The translations under genes and the position numbers were made by a program. The notes below the pieces were generated by a model. The model had not been told where the DNA came from. It saw only the letters and a list, made by a program, of their open reading frames with translations, and did no database searches. Below, in pieces: positions 5,134-29,669 of a stretch of 60,257 nucleotides of DNA. Where the stretch lies: the NCBI GenBank assembly GCA_904419545.1, contig CAJFRY010000008.1, positions 1 through 60,257 of the forward strand. The letters run 5' to 3'. Origin of the DNA: Candidatus Woodwardiibium gallinarum. GTDB taxonomy: Bacteria > Bacillota > Clostridia > Oscillospirales > CAG-382. How positions within the stretch are numbered: position 1 is the stretch's first letter; each line of letters opens with the position of its first letter.

Positions 5134-5354
5134 TACGCGAGCTTCTCTTCGATGTATTTCGTAATGTCGCCTACGGTCTTGAGGTTTTCGTTCATCTCGA
5201 TGGTCACGCCGAATTCGTCCTCCAGACTCATGACCAGCTCGGCTACGTCGAGCGAGTCGAGCGACAGCTCCGCGAAGGTCGTTTCGGGCTTGATCGTAGA
5301 TGCGTCCGCTCCGTTGTAATCCGCAAGGATCGCAATGACTTTTTCCAGTACCAT
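5133..5354 (-). CDS. acpP: Acyl carrier protein
   Basis: The small acidic carrier of the growing fatty acyl chain. The 73-residue protein is a four-helix carrier with the phosphopantetheine-attachment serine S34 in LSLDSLDVAEL. The ATG at 5354 has GGAGG about 10 bases upstream; an earlier in-frame start would add 14 residues not typical of ACP. Its stop overlaps the fabK start by one base. The position between fabH and fabK is the classical Firmicute order. Confidence 0.95.
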   Translation of the reverse strand: MVLEKVIAILADYNGADASTIKPETTFAELSLDSLDVAELVMSLEDEFGVTIEMNENLKTVGDITKYIEEKLA

Positions 5355-17629: not shown

Positions 17630-17997
17630 GCGGTTCCGGCGGAGGGCAGAAAGAAAGCCTAACGGCTTTTGCGGATGTCTGTCCGCTGTGCCGAATCAAC
17701 GGGGTAGGAAAACGCCCTTGTAAGCGCTTTTGCTTACGGCATAATTGCAGCGCGGTCTGCCGGACAGAAGCAAAAATCCTGCCGTTTGCCGCAGAAGCGG
17801 CGGGTTTACAGAACCATTGCGGCGCGGGCGGCGCTATATGTGCCCGATGCGCGGGGTCCTGCTGCATGCGGTTGGCGGCCGTCGGTCGTGCGCGGCCTTT
17901 TTCGGTCGAACTGCCGTCCGGAGGCGTTTTTCTGCGCATCTGTATTGCGCCGATAATCCGGGCCGGCCTGATGCCGGCGGAAATGGATGTCTTACAT
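17630..17997 (+). other. Long structured leader before rlmB, possible non-coding RNA
   Basis: About 370 bases are transcribed ahead of rlmB. Several helices can be drawn: AAAGCC/GGCTTT around 17655-17672 enclosed by a longer CGGC...GCCG helix (about 17637-17695), GTAAGC/GCTTAC (about 17719-17736), and GCCGC/GCGGC near 17791-17804. GGTTC at 17632-17636 can pair with GAACC near 17814. I could not match it to a riboswitch, 6S, SRP, tmRNA or RNase P consensus. Confidence 0.4.
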
Positions 17998-18828
17998 ATG
18001 AGGGAAAAAAATACATTTCGCCGCGGAGGACCTTCCCGCCGCGGAGATGATTTTCGCCGCACGGAGCCTTTGCGCCAAACGGAGGCGGAAAGCACCGGCA
18101 GCGTTGTCGCCGGGCGCAATGCGGTGCTCGAGCTGCTGAAAAGCGGCCGGTCTGTGGACAAGATTTATATTCAGACCGGCGCCCGTGAGGGCAGTGTGAC
18201 CGTAATTGTCGCCGAGGCGGCCAAACGCGGCGTACCTGCCGTCGACGCGGACCGGCGCAAGCTGGATATGCTCTGCGGCGGCGTTGCGCATCAGGGCGTG
18301 GCCGCATTGGCATCGGAGGTCGAGTACGTCGGTCTTGCGGACATTCTCCGCATTGCCGAGGAACGCGGCGAAGCGCCGTTTATTGTTGTTGCCGATTCGA
18401 TCAACGATCCGCATAATCTCGGCGCGCTCATCCGCAGTGCCTGCTGTGCCGGCGCGCATGGTATCGTCATCCCCAAGCGGCGTGCGGTTCAGGTGACGCC
18501 GGCGGTCATCAAGTCTTCTGCCGGCGCAGTCGAGCATATTGCGGTCGCGCGGGTGTCCAATCTGGCGGCGGCGATCGACGAGCTGAAAGAAAAAAACGTG
18601 TGGATTTATGCCGTTGAAGCCGACGGCGAACCATACTACGATAAGGACTTTTCGACCGGCGGCTGTGCGTTCGTTCTCGGGAGTGAGGGCGAGGGCGTCT
18701 CCCGCCTGCTGCGCGACAAGGCGGATTTTATCGTGGCGATCCCGATGTACGGCGGCGTAGGCTCGCTGAACGTATCGGCTGCGGCTTCGGTTGTGATTTT
18801 CGAGGCGGCGCGGCAGCGGCACAAGTAA
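17998..18828 (+). CDS. rlmB: 23S rRNA 2'-O-methyltransferase RlmB (TrmH family)
   Basis: A SpoU/TrmH-type enzyme expected to methylate the ribose of a 23S rRNA guanosine. The 276-residue protein has a basic N-terminus, the substrate-binding domain beginning at VVAGRNAVLELL and the knotted SPOUT domain with its three motifs: DSINDPHNLGALIRSA, FVLGSEGEGV and IPMYGGVGSLNVSAAA. The ATG at 17998 has only a weak ribosome-binding site, and an ATG five codons earlier is an alternative. Followed 40 bases later by a large membrane protein. Confidence 0.9.
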   Translation: MREKNTFRRGGPSRRGDDFRRTEPLRQTEAESTGSVVAGRNAVLELLKSGRSVDKIYIQTGAREGSVTVIVAEAAKRGVPAVDADRRKLDMLCGGVAHQGVAALASEVEYVGLADILRIAEERGEAPFIVVADSINDPHNLGALIRSACCAGAHGIVIPKRRAVQVTPAVIKSSAGAVEHIAVARVSNLAAAIDELKEKNVWIYAVEADGEPYYDKDFSTGGCAFVLGSEGEGVSRLLRDKADFIVAIPMYGGVGSLNVSAAASVVIFEAARQRHK

Positions 18829-18868: not shown

Positions 18869-21367
18869 ATGGGCGGCAGACCGACCGGAAAATTGGATAT
18901 CGGCGCGCTGTTGGACGAGGCGGCCCGCGCGAACGAAGCGCTGCGGTCGGCCGCGCCGCGTACGGACAAGGCCGCCGACCGGCAGCCGGAGGCGCCGGCC
19001 GAGGCAAAGCCGGATGAGTCCGCCGCGCCGGATATTACCAGCGAGCTCATACGCCGCTATTCCGAACGCGTGAAGGAGCCCGATCCCCGCAGCAGCACGC
19101 AGAGCCTGCGGGATTCGCTGCACGCGCATATGGAGGACGACCGCGAGCTGCTGGCGTATTACAGCGGCCGCAGCGGGCACCGCAGCGGCAAGGTGGACGA
19201 ATTGTATGAGATCATCAAATCTGCTAAGTCCGCAACCGAATCGGACGCGCGGGTGCGGCCTGTTCCGCATGACGTTTCGCGTTTTCGGGACGCCTCGGAG
19301 GTCGAGCTGCCCGAGCAGGCCGAGCAGGGAAAGCTCTTTCCGCTGACCGAGACCATCGAGCTGGGCGATCCGGCGCAGGAGCCGGCTCCGTCGTATGATG
19401 AAGACTATAAGAAGCTGAGCGAAAAAATAGAAAAGGGCGAGCTGGATTTCAACGAGGAGACGGAGAACGAAGGGCAGATCTCCATCGTCGACGAGCTGTT
19501 GCCGGACGAATTGAAAGTCGGCACGGGCCGCTCGATGGATGAGGAACTGAAAAGCGTCTTTGATATGTTTGATGAGGACCATTACGCCGATCCCGACGGG
19601 CCTGACCCTGTCAAACCGAAAAAGAAGGAAAAGCGTCAGCTGCGGGAGGATCCGGCCGACGCGTTTGAATACACCTCCAGAGAGCAGAACGCTGAAATCG
19701 GTTCGATGCTCAAAAAAGCCGTCAAGCAAAGCCGTCTGCGGCTGGCGGGCGTGCTGTTCTTCGCGCTGGCGGCGCTGTATCTGGCGCTTGCCTCGCCCGA
19801 CTCTCAGTTCCATTCCGATTTCCTGCGCCCGGGGCGCTACGGTATCGTTTATATTCTGGTTGATTTGCAGGTGCTGCTGTTCATTGCGGCTCTGAGCCTG
19901 TCGTCTATCAAGAGCGGCGCAAAGGCGCTGTTCACGTGGCGGCCGACGGCGGACAGCGTCCTGTTCTTCTCGTTTGCGGTCAGCATATGCTATTCCGTCC
20001 TGACGGCATTCATTGCGCCGACGGCTGAGGATTTTGTGCCGTTTTCGCTCTTTGCTGCCGCTGCGGCCGTCTGTGCCGCTGCGGTCAATTACCTGCGCTG
20101 CAAAAAAGATCTGCACTGTTTCCGTGTGGTTGCCTCCAAAAATCCCAAATATGTCGCCGCGCGGCTTTCGGGCGGCACGGCGGAGGCCGACGAGTTTTAT
20201 AAATATTTATTGGATGATTCTGGCCTGTATACCGTTCGGCGAGCCGGCTTTATCAGTGGCTTTTTTGCGCGGATGCGCCGCCGTCCGCAGAGTGAGGACC
20301 TGTTCAAGCTGGTCATTCCGGTCGTGTTCCTCGCGGGCGCTGTTCTGTTCGGGCTGCGGCTGTATGCGGGCGACAGCCTCTTCGCTGCGCTGACGGCGTT
20401 TATGCGGGTGGCTGCGACGGCCACGCCGCTGACGGCCTTCTTTATGATTTCGCTGCCTGTCATCGCGGCGAACCGCGTGGGCAGGAAGTGCTCGTCCGCG
20501 CTCATCGGCAACGCTGTCGGTGAAGAATACGCCGACGCGTCGGTCATTTCGTTTGCGGACACGGAGGTATATCCTTCCAACCTTGTCAAAATCACCAGCA
20601 TCAAGACCTACGGCGACTACCGCATCGATATGGCCGTGTCGGACTTGGCGCGGGCGTTCGCTTTCATCGGCGGACCGCTTTCCAAAGTGGTTTCCAATAT
20701 GCTCAGCGAGCCGGTGCAGCCGGTTGAAAATGCGCGCGTGATCGAGTCGGCGGCCGACGGCATCTGTGTGGTGCTGGACGGAGTCGAGATGTACCTCGGC
20801 AAGCGCGGCTATATGAAGCGCTGCCGCTTCGGCGCGCCGCGCGACGTCGGTGACGACGAATATGAAGATACGGTGGGCAGCGTGATGTATATGGCCATCG
20901 GCGACGCATTGGTCGCCAAGGTCTACGTCCGTTATTCCATAAATCCGCAGTTTAACGACCTTCTGCGTGACCTTTACCGCGCGGGGATGTGCGTGGGCAT
21001 CAAGACCCTTGACCCGAACATCAGCAATGAGCTGCTTGCGCGCGGAATTACCTTCAACAAATGCCCCATTGCGATTCTCAAGGCGGGCGGGGCCGAGCAG
21101 GCCGGCGAGCGCGAGGAAGCGATAGATACCGGCATCGTCACCAACGCATCGATGCACACCTTTCTGAAAATGTTCATCCTCTGCGATAAGGTGCGGCATG
21201 TGACGAAATCCAACGGCGTCATCCATGTCCTGAGTGTGCTGCTGTCGCTGTTCGTGGCGTTTTTCCTTACCTTCACAGGCGCGGGCGCGCAGCTCGGACC
21301 GGTGTTTGCCGTGCTGTTTCAGGCGCTTTGGCTCATCCCGATTTGGCTCACATCGCGGCTGATTTGA
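18869..21367 (+). CDS. P1B-ATPase-like membrane protein lacking catalytic motifs
   Basis: An 832-residue protein with an acidic, low-complexity cytosolic N-terminus (1-285) and membrane helices near 292-310, 326-345, 363-383, 388-408, 481-500, 512-535, 786-804 and 809-829. The 4+2+2 helix order with cytosolic loops after helices 4 and 6 is that of heavy-metal P-type ATPases. The P-domain region aligns by eye but is degenerate: FDKTG is FADTE (562-566), TGDN is TLDPN (713-717), the helix-6 CPC is ATP, and no GDGxND is present. An N-domain-like stretch (ADGICVVLDGVEMYLGKRGY, 629-648) remains. It cannot form the usual phosphoaspartate, so it is probably a pseudo-ATPase; role unknown. Shares the rlmB transcript. 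Confidence 0.7.
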   Translation: MGGRPTGKLDIGALLDEAARANEALRSAAPRTDKAADRQPEAPAEAKPDESAAPDITSELIRRYSERVKEPDPRSSTQSLRDSLHAHMEDDRELLAYYSGRSGHRSGKVDELYEIIKSAKSATESDARVRPVPHDVSRFRDASEVELPEQAEQGKLFPLTETIELGDPAQEPAPSYDEDYKKLSEKIEKGELDFNEETENEGQISIVDELLPDELKVGTGRSMDEELKSVFDMFDEDHYADPDGPDPVKPKKKEKRQLREDPADAFEYTSREQNAEIGSMLKKAVKQSRLRLAGVLFFALAALYLALASPDSQFHSDFLRPGRYGIVYILVDLQVLLFIAALSLSSIKSGAKALFTWRPTADSVLFFSFAVSICYSVLTAFIAPTAEDFVPFSLFAAAAAVCAAAVNYLRCKKDLHCFRVVASKNPKYVAARLSGGTAEADEFYKYLLDDSGLYTVRRAGFISGFFARMRRRPQSEDLFKLVIPVVFLAGAVLFGLRLYAGDSLFAALTAFMRVAATATPLTAFFMISLPVIAANRVGRKCSSALIGNAVGEEYADASVISFADTEVYPSNLVKITSIKTYGDYRIDMAVSDLARAFAFIGGPLSKVVSNMLSEPVQPVENARVIESAADGICVVLDGVEMYLGKRGYMKRCRFGAPRDVGDDEYEDTVGSVMYMAIGDALVAKVYVRYSINPQFNDLLRDLYRAGMCVGIKTLDPNISNELLARGITFNKCPIAILKAGGAEQAGEREEAIDTGIVTNASMHTFLKMFILCDKVRHVTKSNGVIHVLSVLLSLFVAFFLTFTGAGAQLGPVFAVLFQALWLIPIWLTSRLI

Positions 21368-21532: not shown

Positions 21533-23602
21533 GTGGCTAAATTTTCTTCTGACGCGATAAGAAACATTTGCTTGCTCGGTCATGGCGGAGACGGGAAAAC
21601 GTCGATCGCCGAGGCGATGCTGTATCTTGCTAAGGCGACGGACAGACTTGGTAAGGTCGCGGACGGCAACACCGTCTGTGATTTTGACCCGGAAGAGATC
21701 AAAAGAGGCTTTTCACTCTCGACGTCGCTTGCGAATTTCGAGTGGAAGGGCAAAAAAATAAACCTTCTGGATACGCCGGGCTATTTTGATTTTGTCGGCG
21801 AAGTGCAGCAGGCTGTCGCCGTGGCGGGCAGCGCGATCATCGTGCTCGAGGCCAAGGGCGGCGTCAAGGTCGGCGCCGAGCTGGCGTGGGATGCGGCCGC
21901 AGCCATTCCCAAGGCGTTTTTCGTCAATAAGATGGACGATGAAAATGCCGATTTCGATGCGGTCTTTCAATCCCTGCGTGACAAATTCGGAAAGAGCGTA
22001 TGCCCGGTCATCGTGCCCTACGGCGAGGGGGCGGAGATGGGATACTACAATCTGCTTCAGGAGGAAGCATATACCTTCGACAAAACGGGCGCGCGCACTG
22101 CGGTGCCGCTTCCCGACGCCTATAAAGAAAAAATGGCCGGCTATCAATCGATTATTTTTGAATCTCTCGCCGAGACGAGCGAGGAGCTGATGGAAAAGTT
22201 CTTCGCCGAGGAGCCCTTCACCCACGAGGAGCTGGAAACGGCGCTCAACCGCGGGCTCTGCTCGGGCGATATCGCGCCCGTGTTCTGCGGTTCGGCGCTC
22301 AATTTCGCGGGCCTTCGCACGCTGCTCAACTACATCGCTTCGTCCTTCGCTTCACCGCTTGACCGCTGCGAAAAAACGGTCATCGGCCCCGACGGCGAGC
22401 CGACGACAATCAAGGCGTCGCCGGAGGGCGCGCCGAGTCTGTTCGTGTTTAAGACCGTGGCGGACGCGTTCGGCAAAAAGACCTACTTCAAGGTGATGAA
22501 CGGTACGCTGAAGAAGGACGCGCAGCTTGTCAACCTCACGACCGGGCAGACCGAGAAGATCAGCCGCATCGTCACGCCGGTGGGCAAGACCGACGTCGAG
22601 GCCGACGAGCTGGCTTACGGCGATATCGGCTATACGGTCAAGCTGGTCAATACCAATACCAACGACACCCTCGCTTCGCAGGGCTGGACGTATACATATC
22701 CGAAGATCGAGTTCCCGAAGCCGTATCTCTGTATGGCCATTTCGCCCAAATCGAAGGGCGACGAGGACAAGATCGCCACCGGCATTGCCAAGCTGCTGGA
22801 GGAGGACCTGACCATCCGCTATGAGAACAATGCCGAGACCAAGCAGATGTGCATCTACGGTTTGGGCGAGATGCATATCGACGTCATCACCTCCAAGCTG
22901 AAGAACCGCTTCGGCACTACGGTCACCATTTCGCCTGCAAAGGTACCCTACCGTGAAACGATCAAGAAAAAGGTGCAGGTCGAGGGCAAGCACAAGAAGC
23001 AATCGGGCGGGCATGGGCAGTACGGCCATGTGAAAATCGAGTTTTCGCCCGGTACCACCGACGGCTTGGAATTCACCGAGACCATTTTCGGCGGCAGCGT
23101 GCCGAAGAACTTCCATCCGGCGGTCGAGAAGGGGCTGCAGGAGTCGATGGCGAAGGGCGTGCTGGCCGGATATCCCGTCATCGGGATCAAGGCCAACCTG
23201 TTCGACGGCTCGTACCACGACGTTGATTCTTCGGAGATGTCGTTCAAGCTGGCGGCCAACCTTGCCTTCAAGGAGGGCATGAAGCAGGGAGGCGCCGTGC
23301 TGCTGGAGCCGGTCGGCGAGCTGCGCGTGTCGATCCCCACGTCCTATTCGGGCGATATTATGGGCGATATCAGCAAGCGCCGCGGTCGGATCATGGGTAT
23401 GAGCGAGAGCGGCCGGAAGGGCTTTACGGTCATAGAGGCCGAGGTGCCGTCCGCCGAGATGGGTACCTACGCCATCCAGCTTCGTGCGATGACGCAGGGG
23501 CGCGGCTCGTATTCGTTTAACTTTGTTCGGTATGAGGAAGCGCCTGCCGAGGTGGCGGCGAAGGTGATTGAGGCGGCGAAGAAGGAAGCCGCCGTTGAAT
23601 GA
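21533..23602 (+). CDS. Elongation factor G-like GTPase
   Basis: A paralogue of EF-G (689 residues, GTG start with GGAGG 9 bases upstream). The GTPase domain has P-loop GHGGDGKT (16-23), DTPGYFDF (80-87) and NKMD (132-135), followed by EF-G domains II, III (LGEMHIDVITSKLK), IV (KKQSGGHGQYGHVKIEF) and V (ELRVSIPTSYSGDIMGD). The catalytic His of canonical DTPGH is Tyr, a feature of this EF-G-like subfamily, whose role in translation or ribosome rescue is unsettled. Canonical fusA is expected elsewhere with the ribosomal operons. Confidence 0.88.
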   Translation: MAKFSSDAIRNICLLGHGGDGKTSIAEAMLYLAKATDRLGKVADGNTVCDFDPEEIKRGFSLSTSLANFEWKGKKINLLDTPGYFDFVGEVQQAVAVAGSAIIVLEAKGGVKVGAELAWDAAAAIPKAFFVNKMDDENADFDAVFQSLRDKFGKSVCPVIVPYGEGAEMGYYNLLQEEAYTFDKTGARTAVPLPDAYKEKMAGYQSIIFESLAETSEELMEKFFAEEPFTHEELETALNRGLCSGDIAPVFCGSALNFAGLRTLLNYIASSFASPLDRCEKTVIGPDGEPTTIKASPEGAPSLFVFKTVADAFGKKTYFKVMNGTLKKDAQLVNLTTGQTEKISRIVTPVGKTDVEADELAYGDIGYTVKLVNTNTNDTLASQGWTYTYPKIEFPKPYLCMAISPKSKGDEDKIATGIAKLLEEDLTIRYENNAETKQMCIYGLGEMHIDVITSKLKNRFGTTVTISPAKVPYRETIKKKVQVEGKHKKQSGGHGQYGHVKIEFSPGTTDGLEFTETIFGGSVPKNFHPAVEKGLQESMAKGVLAGYPVIGIKANLFDGSYHDVDSSEMSFKLAANLAFKEGMKQGGAVLLEPVGELRVSIPTSYSGDIMGDISKRRGRIMGMSESGRKGFTVIEAEVPSAEMGTYAIQLRAMTQGRGSYSFNFVRYEEAPAEVAAKVIEAAKKEAAVE

Positions 23603-27020: not shown

Positions 27021-28121
27021 CTACGCTTCGCCGTCCGCGAGGGAACGGCGCTTGCTTCTCCGAACGCGATTGATGTGCCGCTCGAAGTCTCCGTTTTCAA
27101 TCAGTTCGGCCAGCACGTACTGCATATACGTCGGGACGGTGCAGGAGTAAAAGCCGAGCTTTGCGTCAAACGGCTCCGTCAGCTGTTCGGGCAGCACCAT
27201 ATAGCCGACTCGCAGCGACGGCGAGACGGTTTTTGAAAATGTGTTCATATAAATTATGCTGCCGTCCGCCGAATCGGCAAACAACGTTTCTTCCGGCTTG
27301 GTGGAGACCGAAAATTCGCTCTCGAAATCATCCTCCACGATGTACGCGCCGCGTTTTGCCGCCCAGCGGAGGTATTCGTGCCGTTTGGAGGCCGACGCGG
27401 TCACGCCGCTGGGAAAGCTGCGGTAGGGCGAGATGTGCAGGACGTCGGCCGTGCTCGTCCACAGCGCTTCGCTGTCGATCCCGTCCGCGCCGAGCGGAAG
27501 CCGTTCATACCGCACATCCGCAGCGCGGTAAACTTGCTCGATCACCTTGTAGGAGGGTGTTTCGATGGCGTACACCTTGTCCCGTCCAAGCAGCTCTACA
27601 ATCAGCCCGTACAGGTATTCCGAGCCTGAGCCGATGATGATCTGCCCGATTTCGGCGCTGATGCCGCGGCTGCGCGCCAGATACTGCCGCAGTGCTTCGC
27701 GCAGCCGCAGGCATCCGGCGTTCGGCGAGCGGGCCAGAATCGATTCGCCCATTTCGCTGAGCACATGACGCATCGTTTTCGCCAGCACCGAAAACGGGAA
27801 TGCGGGCTCGCCGCCGTTTTCGCGCTTCCCCTCCGGCCGGATGCGGGAAACCTGCGGCGCGGCTGCGGCGAATCCGTCGCCGGTGCGGAAGATTACAAAA
27901 TAGCCGCTGCGCTCCCGCGCTTCCACATATCCCTCGTCGCAGAGCAGTGCGCAGGCGTGCTCAACGGTTATGATGCTGACGCTTGTTTCCGCAGCTACCG
28001 TACGCTTGGACGGCAGCCTGCCGCCGTATGGATATATGCCCTGCACGATGTCCTCCCGTATCTGTCGGTAAAGCTGCAAATAAGCCGGCACACCTGCATT
28101 CGTTTCAATCATGTATCTCAT
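27021..28121 (-). CDS. pdxR: MocR/PdxR-type regulator with shortened C-terminus
   Basis: A GntR winged-helix (about 10-75; GGRLPSKRTVAAETSVS) fused to a class I aminotransferase-like domain that binds pyridoxal phosphate (lysine in NTFSKTVSPSLRVGY, about 298-312). Being divergent from pdxST it fits PdxR, which activates vitamin B6 synthesis. The protein has 366 residues, whereas the family is about 460-480. Similarity runs to FERHINRVRR and then stops within 10 residues, so most of the small C-terminal subdomain is missing. I see no matching sequence in other frames downstream, so a deletion is more likely than a frameshift. Activity is uncertain. Confidence 0.8.
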   Translation of the reverse strand: MRYMIETNAGVPAYLQLYRQIREDIVQGIYPYGGRLPSKRTVAAETSVSIITVEHACALLCDEGYVEARERSGYFVIFRTGDGFAAAAPQVSRIRPEGKRENGGEPAFPFSVLAKTMRHVLSEMGESILARSPNAGCLRLREALRQYLARSRGISAEIGQIIIGSGSEYLYGLIVELLGRDKVYAIETPSYKVIEQVYRAADVRYERLPLGADGIDSEALWTSTADVLHISPYRSFPSGVTASASKRHEYLRWAAKRGAYIVEDDFESEFSVSTKPEETLFADSADGSIIYMNTFSKTVSPSLRVGYMVLPEQLTEPFDAKLGFYSCTVPTYMQYVLAELIENGDFERHINRVRRSKRRSLADGEA

Positions 28122-28214
28122 CTGGTTATATAAAACTCTCCCGTTTTGATTATTTTCATATCTCCAGATTTAGTATATACTTTTTTCATCCAAAATGCAA
28201 GGGAGAGAATCGAG
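28122..28214. promoter_or_regulatory. Divergent pdxR/pdxS control region
   Basis: A 93-base AT-rich interval. TTTCAT (28164-28169), 16 bases, TATACT could serve pdxST. CTCTCCC (28136-28142) and GGGAGAG (28201-28207) form an inverted repeat in which each arm is also the likely ribosome-binding site of one of the two genes. No single clear PdxR site can be named by eye. Confidence 0.4.
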
Positions 28215-29090
28215 ATGTCGGAAAATCGTTACGAACTGAATAAGAACCTCGCGCAGATGCTCAAGGGCGGCGTGATCATGGACGTCACCACGCCCGAGCA
28301 GGCGAAGATTGCCGAGGCGGCGGGCGCCTGCGCGGTTATGGCGCTCGAGCGCATTCCGGCGGATATCCGTGCGGCGGGCGGTGTGTCTCGGATGAGCGAC
28401 CCCAAAATGATCAAGGGCATTCAGAACGCCGTTTCCATTCCGGTGATGGCGAAATGCCGCATCGGACACTTCGCGGAGGCACAGATTTTGCAGGCCATTG
28501 AAATCGATTATATCGATGAGAGCGAGGTCCTCTCGCCTGCGGACGACCGCTACCACATCGACAAGACGAAGTTTGACGTTCCCTTCGTCTGCGGCGCGAA
28601 GGACCTCGGCGAGGCGTTGCGACGCATCAACGAAGGCGCTTCTATGATCCGCACCAAGGGCGAGCCGGGCACAGGCGACGTCGTGCAGGCCGTCCGCCAT
28701 ATGCGTATGATGCAGTCGGAAATCCGGCGTATCCGTGCAATGGCTGAGGATGAGCTCTTCGATGCGGCCAAGCAACTTGCAGTCCCCTACGAGCTGGTGC
28801 TCTACGTACATGAAAACGGGAAGCTGCCCGTCGTCAATTTTGCCGCCGGCGGCGTGGCGACGCCCGCGGATGCGGCGCTGATGATGCAGCTCGGCGCGGA
28901 GGGTGTTTTCGTCGGCTCGGGCATCTTCAAGTCCGGAAACCCCGAGAAGCGGGCGGCGGCTATCGTCAAAGCGGTTACGAATTTCAACGATGCGCACCTG
29001 CTGGCCGAGCTGTCGGAGGATTTAGGGGAGGCTATGGTCGGCATCAATGAGCAGGAAATCGAGCTGCTGATGGCGGAAAGAGGCAAATGA
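28215..29090 (+). CDS. pdxS: Pyridoxal 5'-phosphate synthase subunit PdxS
   Basis: The synthase subunit of the R5P-dependent vitamin B6 pathway; it joins ribose 5-phosphate, glyceraldehyde 3-phosphate and ammonia to PLP. The 291-residue TIM barrel has the family signatures [46 protein letters not shown] and [19 protein letters not shown]. The ATG at 28215 follows GGGAGAG by 7 bases. pdxT begins 3 bases after its stop. Confidence 0.97.
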
Positions 29091-29093
29091 CCG

Positions 29094-29669
29094 ATGCGCA
29101 TTGCCGTACTGGCCCTGCAGGGGGCCTTCATCGAACACGAGCGGATGCTTGCATCCCTTGGGGCGGACGTTTTCGAGCTCCGGCAGGAAAAGGACCTGCA
29201 CCGTCCTTTTGACGGGCTGGTCCTCCCCGGCGGGGAAAGCACCGTGCAGGGCAAGCTGCTGCGGGAAACGGGGATGTTCGAACCGCTGCGCAGCAAAATC
29301 GAGGCCGGACTGCCCGTATTCGGCACCTGCGCCGGACTGCTGCTGCTGGCCAAGCGGATTGAAAACGACGACCGGACGCATTTCGCCGTAATGGACGTCG
29401 CCGCCGTTCGCAATGCCTACGGCCGTCAGCTCGGCAGCTTTGCCGCCGAAACCGAATTTGCAGGCGTCGGGCGCGTTCCGGCCATTTTCATCCGTGCGCC
29501 CTATATCGGGGAGGTGTTCGGCCAATCGCAGGCGCTTGCGTTGGTAGACAACCGTATCGTCGCTGCACAGCAGGGCAATATGCTGGTGACGGCGTTCCAT
29601 CCCGAGCTAAGCGGCGACCCGTCGGTGCATCGGTATTTTCTTGAAACGCTTGTTGCACCCTCGCAATAA
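29094..29669 (+). CDS. pdxT: Pyridoxal 5'-phosphate synthase glutaminase subunit PdxT
   Basis: The glutaminase that feeds ammonia to PdxS. The 191-residue class I amidotransferase has nucleophile Cys79 (FGTCAGLLLL), His169 and Glu171 (FHPEL), and PGGEST near 45, all at the positions known from B. subtilis. Operon with pdxS; a terminator follows. Confidence 0.97.
   Translation: MRIAVLALQGAFIEHERMLASLGADVFELRQEKDLHRPFDGLVLPGGESTVQGKLLRETGMFEPLRSKIEAGLPVFGTCAGLLLLAKRIENDDRTHFAVMDVAAVRNAYGRQLGSFAAETEFAGVGRVPAIFIRAPYIGEVFGQSQALALVDNRIVAAQQGNMLVTAFHPELSGDPSVHRYFLETLVAPSQ

Follow-up and report, generated by a model that had tools for sequence, protein, structure and literature searches.

One gene in the window (the whole stretch of 60,257 nucleotides from Candidatus Woodwardiibium gallinarum that was analysed) encodes a member of a pseudo-ATPase family which, as profile comparison and predicted fold show, descended from P1B-1-type ATPases. 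That this protein no longer pumps has good support, the loss of ATP hydrolysis and metal transport being inferred here without experiment, and the computed substitution ratios show that the core of the family is under purifying selection. On balance we favour the reading that the protein has taken on a new role as a membrane-anchored platform for interactions or sensing and is expressed together with rlmB; this role is likewise inferred without experiment.

Descent from Cu+ P1B-1 ATPases

The earlier note, made from the raw sequence, had proposed a P1B-like architecture, and this needed testing because single-sequence searches gave nothing significant: the window protein as a single query matched no Pfam or NCBIfam family, and in a single-sequence PDB search LpCopA was only a weak match (E 0.42). 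When the family profile was compared by hhalign with a set of 19 genuine P1B-ATPases that included three from the source genome, the result was E 2.5e-35 (E 4.1e-37 with the larger family set), and the matches of the family profile among PDB sequences were all P-type ATPases, with LpCopA at the top (E 2.4e-30). The NCBIfam model ATPase-IB_hvy was matched individually by 22 of 34 family members (E below 0.01). The AlphaFold model of the 565-residue core (mean pLDDT 90.5, pTM 0.83) has eight membrane helices in the order 4-loop-2-loop-2, as in P1B-ATPases. Its best fold match is LpCopA (Z 22.5 over 481 residues), followed by ATP7B and HMA4 and then by Zn/Cd (ZntA-type) ATPases (Z ~16), with weaker matches to KdpB (Z ~14) and other P-type classes (~13). 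Membership by descent of the P-type ATPase fold superfamily, judged by a homologous fold together with a sequence profile, is therefore met.

A superficial convergence of helix order could be argued from the single-sequence searches, which had no significant match, but it is contradicted by the decisive profile and fold searches and by the individual ATPase-IB_hvy matches, and is all but excluded. The proposed architecture held, the helix order by AlphaFold and the resemblance of the N and P domains by hhalign, beyond chance; a predicted structure unrelated to P-type ATPases would have refuted it, but the model obtained is that of a P-type ATPase and most resembles Cu+ P1B-1 pumps. The source genome has nine matches to the E1-E2 ATPase family and also encodes intact CPC-type pumps with DKTGT, TGE, TGD and GDGxND. 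Pfam has no model for the pseudo-ATPase family and NCBIfam gives only weak partial matches to metal-pump models, and therefore automatic annotation may give the family no name or wrongly call it a metal pump.

Table 1. Positions in the window of the pseudo-ATPase gene, its parts and its neighbours.
Feature	Position	Strand	Details and basis
Pseudo-P1B-ATPase gene	18869..21367	+	832 codons (832 aa), ATG start, intact; profile comparison, fold, homologue alignment
Cytosolic tail, acidic, mostly disordered	18869..19669	+	residues 1-267
N-terminal helix, IGALLDEAARANEALRSA	18899..18952	+	residues 11-28; pLDDT and tail motif count
Membrane helices MA, MB, M1 and M2 of P1B	19706..20131	+	residues 280-421; AlphaFold and alignment
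Actuator domain remnant	20132..20287	+	residues 422-473; ~65 residues deleted, including TGE; alignment
Membrane helices M3 and M4	20288..20488	+	residues 474-540; CPC replaced by T-P-L; AlphaFold and alignment
Remodelled phosphorylation loop, ADTEVYP	20555..20575	+	residues 563-569; DKTGTLT in pumps; alignment
N-domain-like segment	20624..20938	+	residues 586-690; HP replaced by GP, structural glycines kept, new near-invariant Y689
TLDPN	21005..21019	+	residues 713-717; pumps have TGDN, of which T and D remain
Junction without the ~35-residue GDGxND segment	21119..21124	+	residues 751/752; alignment
C-terminal membrane helices M5 and M6	21152..21361	+	residues 762-831; AlphaFold and alignment
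rlmB (23S rRNA G2251 2'-O-methyltransferase family)	17866..18828	+	40 bp upstream of the pseudo-P1B-ATPase gene, same strand
EF-G-like gene	21533..23602	+	downstream of the pseudo-ATPase gene
Likely pdxS	28146..29090	+	
Likely pdxT	29094..29669	+	
MocR/PdxR-like regulator	27021..28121	-	divergent, beside pdxS/pdxT

Lost pump motifs and the residues that replace them

Alignment of 97 distinct family members onto P1B was used to map the motifs, and of the pump criteria for a P1B-ATPase the helix order is fulfilled while DKTGT, TGE, GDGxND and SEHP/GxG fail, as does the CPC site that marks a P1B-1 ATPase. DKTGT is absent from all 97 homologues, with no DK pair. A gapless 80-column alignment puts the catalytic aspartate on A563 of the window protein, where FDKTG has become FADTE; the column reads A29/D23/S14/T9/R6/K6 among the 97, and the motif lysine (position 564) is found in none of them, with aspartate in its place in 82. 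The actuator domain is ~65 residues shorter, TGE included (the TGE columns are F/Y/K or gap), and the GDGxND segment of ~35 residues is deleted across the family. In the window protein TGDN has become TLDPN, retaining T and D and losing G, and CPC has become T-P-L (519-521) with the proline kept, the family-wide form being xPx with V/A/L/T and L/A/F in the cysteine columns. The N-domain HP is GP in the window protein, its histidine being glycine in 64/97, and the first G of the N-domain GxG is not conserved. All 19 pumps have an aspartate at reference position 634 in the P domain; 94/97 members have tyrosine there.

The changes to FADTE and TLDPN and the missing GDGxND, all claimed in the earlier note, thus held, and the claim that CPC had become ATP held only in part, as the cysteines are lost but the site reads T-P-L. 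Homologues with an intact DKTGT would have marked the window copy as merely decayed; none occurs in the family, where 97/97 distinct sequences are degenerate.

The likeness of D564 and E/D566 to the DxD of haloacid dehalogenases raised the idea of D564 as nucleophile in a shifted register, which was ruled out by the gapless alignment and by a hydrophobic strand ending at 562, placing the catalytic column at 563. With aspartate at the catalytic column in 23/97 members and D564 one residue away, a heterodox chemistry remains possible and is not formally excluded. A still-active, non-canonical P-type pump using D563/D564 and another Mg2+ site would fit the presence, in most members, of an aspartate at or next to the phosphorylation column, would fit the retained T and D of TGD, and would have a precedent in ERMA, which has DKQGI and GSSANL and yet is reported to transport Mg2+ (PMC13322241). 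Against it, GDGxND is deleted rather than substituted, the motif lysine, the TGE segment and the HP histidine are lost, the aspartate column is not conserved, and the cryo-EM study of TMEM94 itself speaks against P-type ATPase activity (PMC12134183). We consider such a pump very unlikely.

The pump motifs are replaced by a conserved constellation of xD(T/S)(E/D)h(F/Y)P, Y689 and TxDPN. By homology the newly conserved positions all map to the former phosphorylation site: besides D564 they are E/D566 (91 of the 97 members), F/Y568 (93), P569, Y689 (94), T713 (78), D715 (96) and N717 (81). The most conserved region of true pumps is M4, whereas the pseudo-ATPase family is most conserved at the start of its P domain and has M3-M4 among its least conserved parts. 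The conserved W821, P824, P520 and P530 sit in membrane helices. A possible but less likely alternative is a membrane protein that uses the P1B helices without ATP, as a passive transporter, as a channel or to bind lipid, with the headpiece as a gate: all eight helices are retained, these four residues are conserved within them, and TMEM94 was seen with a lipid in its membrane domain (PMC12134183). The loss of the CPC metal ligands and the poor conservation of M3-M4 weigh against it.

The core is preceded by an acidic tail, of ~267 aa, 24% D+E and net charge -26 in the window protein; the 285-residue acidic N-terminus described from sequence alone thus held broadly. Across members the tails are about 24% acidic and 14% basic and vary widely in length. 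The tail is predicted to be mostly disordered, with one confident N-terminal helix (full-length AlphaFold, 10-residue pLDDT means 86 and 77) that recurs in other families of the order with the pattern [FYILV]xx[DE][DE]ILxE. The strict N-terminal motif was found in 35/94 tails against 1.4 expected after shuffling. The DDILAE motif was also considered as a tag common to other proteins, an idea rejected when pattern searches of genomes placed N-terminal copies in family members only; the other matches in the genomes searched lay inside unrelated enzymes or short frames. Five members of ~550 aa (genomes G045, G352, G362, G371 and G378) are without the long tail, and their profile match also lacks the first 44-61 core positions.

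Distribution, selection and linkage to rlmB

Of 60 genomes searched at the protein level (the source genome with others of its family and order), 56 had homologues, and the core profile gave exactly one match (E <= 1e-50) in 144/148 near-complete genomes of the order, a group of gut and anaerobic bacteria in which 89/91 genera carry the gene. No full-length member was found outside the order in the class samples, where the core profile otherwise reached only genuine P-type ATPases, over model positions 208-490 and, more weakly, the first membrane helices (best E ~3e-37). In the phylum sample 3/249 genomes passed E 1e-42, all from the source order. Retention of one copy throughout a bacterial order makes a job near core physiology likely. 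For the core, most dN/dS values between close pairs lie at 0.02-0.2, and the inference of selection drawn earlier from the intact frame held on this ground and on that of the order-wide single copy.

A decaying copy of a metal pump would account for the loss of all catalytic motifs and for the in-frame TGA in 1/100 homologues (G057). The loss is, however, common to the whole order, reading frames have stayed open, most dN/dS values are < 0.2 and there are newly conserved residues, and decay is all but excluded. The TGA-split member itself (L064, ~5256-5267) may reflect a sequencing error, a pseudogene or recoding.

Directly upstream of the pseudo-ATPase gene lies a gene which we take to be rlmB, of the TrmH/RlmB proteins, and whose true start may be later than the first ATG of its reading frame. 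The linkage, which the earlier note had suggested checking, was kept: rlmB was directly upstream on the same strand in 33/33 loci of the first set, and adjoined upstream in 100/100 loci of the larger set, one with the TGA-split copy. The adjacency spans ~25 families while other neighbours change, the next best neighbour being an EF-G-like gene (11/34 loci). In the window no terminator-like site was found in the 40 bp gap between rlmB and the pseudo-ATPase gene. Co-expression of the two genes is likely, co-transcription being inferred. Further downstream in the window are putative pdxS and pdxT genes and a putative MocR/PdxR-like regulator (27021-29669).

Four genomes of the order without the pseudo-ATPase gene had no close rlmB (best E 1e-10 to 1e-15), a joint absence that may be due to assembly gaps; rlmB was present in 78/78 genomes of other orders. 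The 100/100 adjacency and the joint absence could be taken to mean that the protein partners RlmB or the ribosome and so places or controls the methylation of 23S rRNA at the membrane. We regard this as unlikely, since RlmB manages without the pseudo-ATPase in all the other orders sampled, assembly gaps may explain the four joint absences, and neighbours can persist for transcription alone, which may be all that the adjacency reflects.

One family of a different order has a genuine copA that begins 2-10 bp after rlmB (L231, L232 and L233), where the source order has its pseudo-ATPase gene, and two further loci of that family (L234 and L235) have no copA there. These 3/5 genomes suggested an in-situ origin from copA beside rlmB, but the RlmB tree did not place the family beside the source order, and such an origin is thus not supported, though not excluded.

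Proposed role and comparison with known systems

Under the platform reading, a Cu+ P1B-1-type ancestor would have given up catalysis and metal transport at the root of the order and been kept as a pseudoenzyme, in which the eight helices would hold at the membrane a cytosolic headpiece formed from the former P and N domains. The former phosphorylation pocket, apparently rebuilt around D564, E/D566, F/Y568, Y689, T713, D715 and N717, would bind a ligand or partner protein; this is inferred, the pocket being read from homology and no partner or ligand being known. The long disordered tail and its conserved N-terminal helix would serve as a docking arm, again by inference, and production alongside rlmB leaves room for a membrane-located role close to translation or to the maturation of ribosomes. 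The bolder reading, in which an apparently core, single-copy pseudoenzyme of the membrane works alongside RlmB where membrane and ribosome meet and binds a ligand in the former phosphorylation pocket, we find unlikely. Among the roles first suggested for the protein, a non-pumping sensor or scaffold is supported only as the best class of explanation. The case for a metal-binding membrane protein is weaker, given the lost CPC ligands, an M4 region that is the best conserved part of pumps but among the least conserved here, and a disordered tail in place of the N-terminal metal-binding domains.

The pseudo-ATPase shares with Cu+ P1B-1 ATPases (CopA, ATP7B, HMA4) the 4-2-2 helix order, the folds of the P and N domains, the N-domain structural glycines, T and D of TGD and the proline of CPC. 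Unlike them, it is without DKTGT, TGE, GDGxND, the CPC cysteines, the HP histidine and heavy-metal domains, has a mostly deleted actuator and bears an acidic, disordered tail.

No earlier report of a bacterial pseudo-P-type ATPase family was found in the open-licence literature searched. Pump pseudoenzymes are rarely described, and the precedents found are eukaryotic and contested. Animal TMEM94/ERMA likewise combines a P-type fold with degenerate catalytic motifs and a missing TGES (PMC12134183, PMC13322241), but has ten helices, is closest to SPCA, keeps the aspartate in DKQGI and has GDGxND altered rather than deleted; a retained aspartate in DKxG is a criterion that the pseudo-ATPase family does not meet. 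Its activity is contested, with Mg2+ transport reported for ERMA and a D427N variant inactive (PMC13322241), and with cryo-EM of TMEM94 arguing against P-type ATPase activity (PMC12134183). A P-type ATPase domain stripped of most signature residues also occurs in apicomplexan guanylate cyclases such as PfGCbeta, and a regulatory role has been proposed for these degenerate P4-ATPase domains (PMC6592433); they differ in being eukaryotic, P4-type and fused to a cyclase (PMC6592433). Beside these systems, the rebuilt site of the pseudo-ATPase family offers a direct test case for a P-type fold without phosphorylation.
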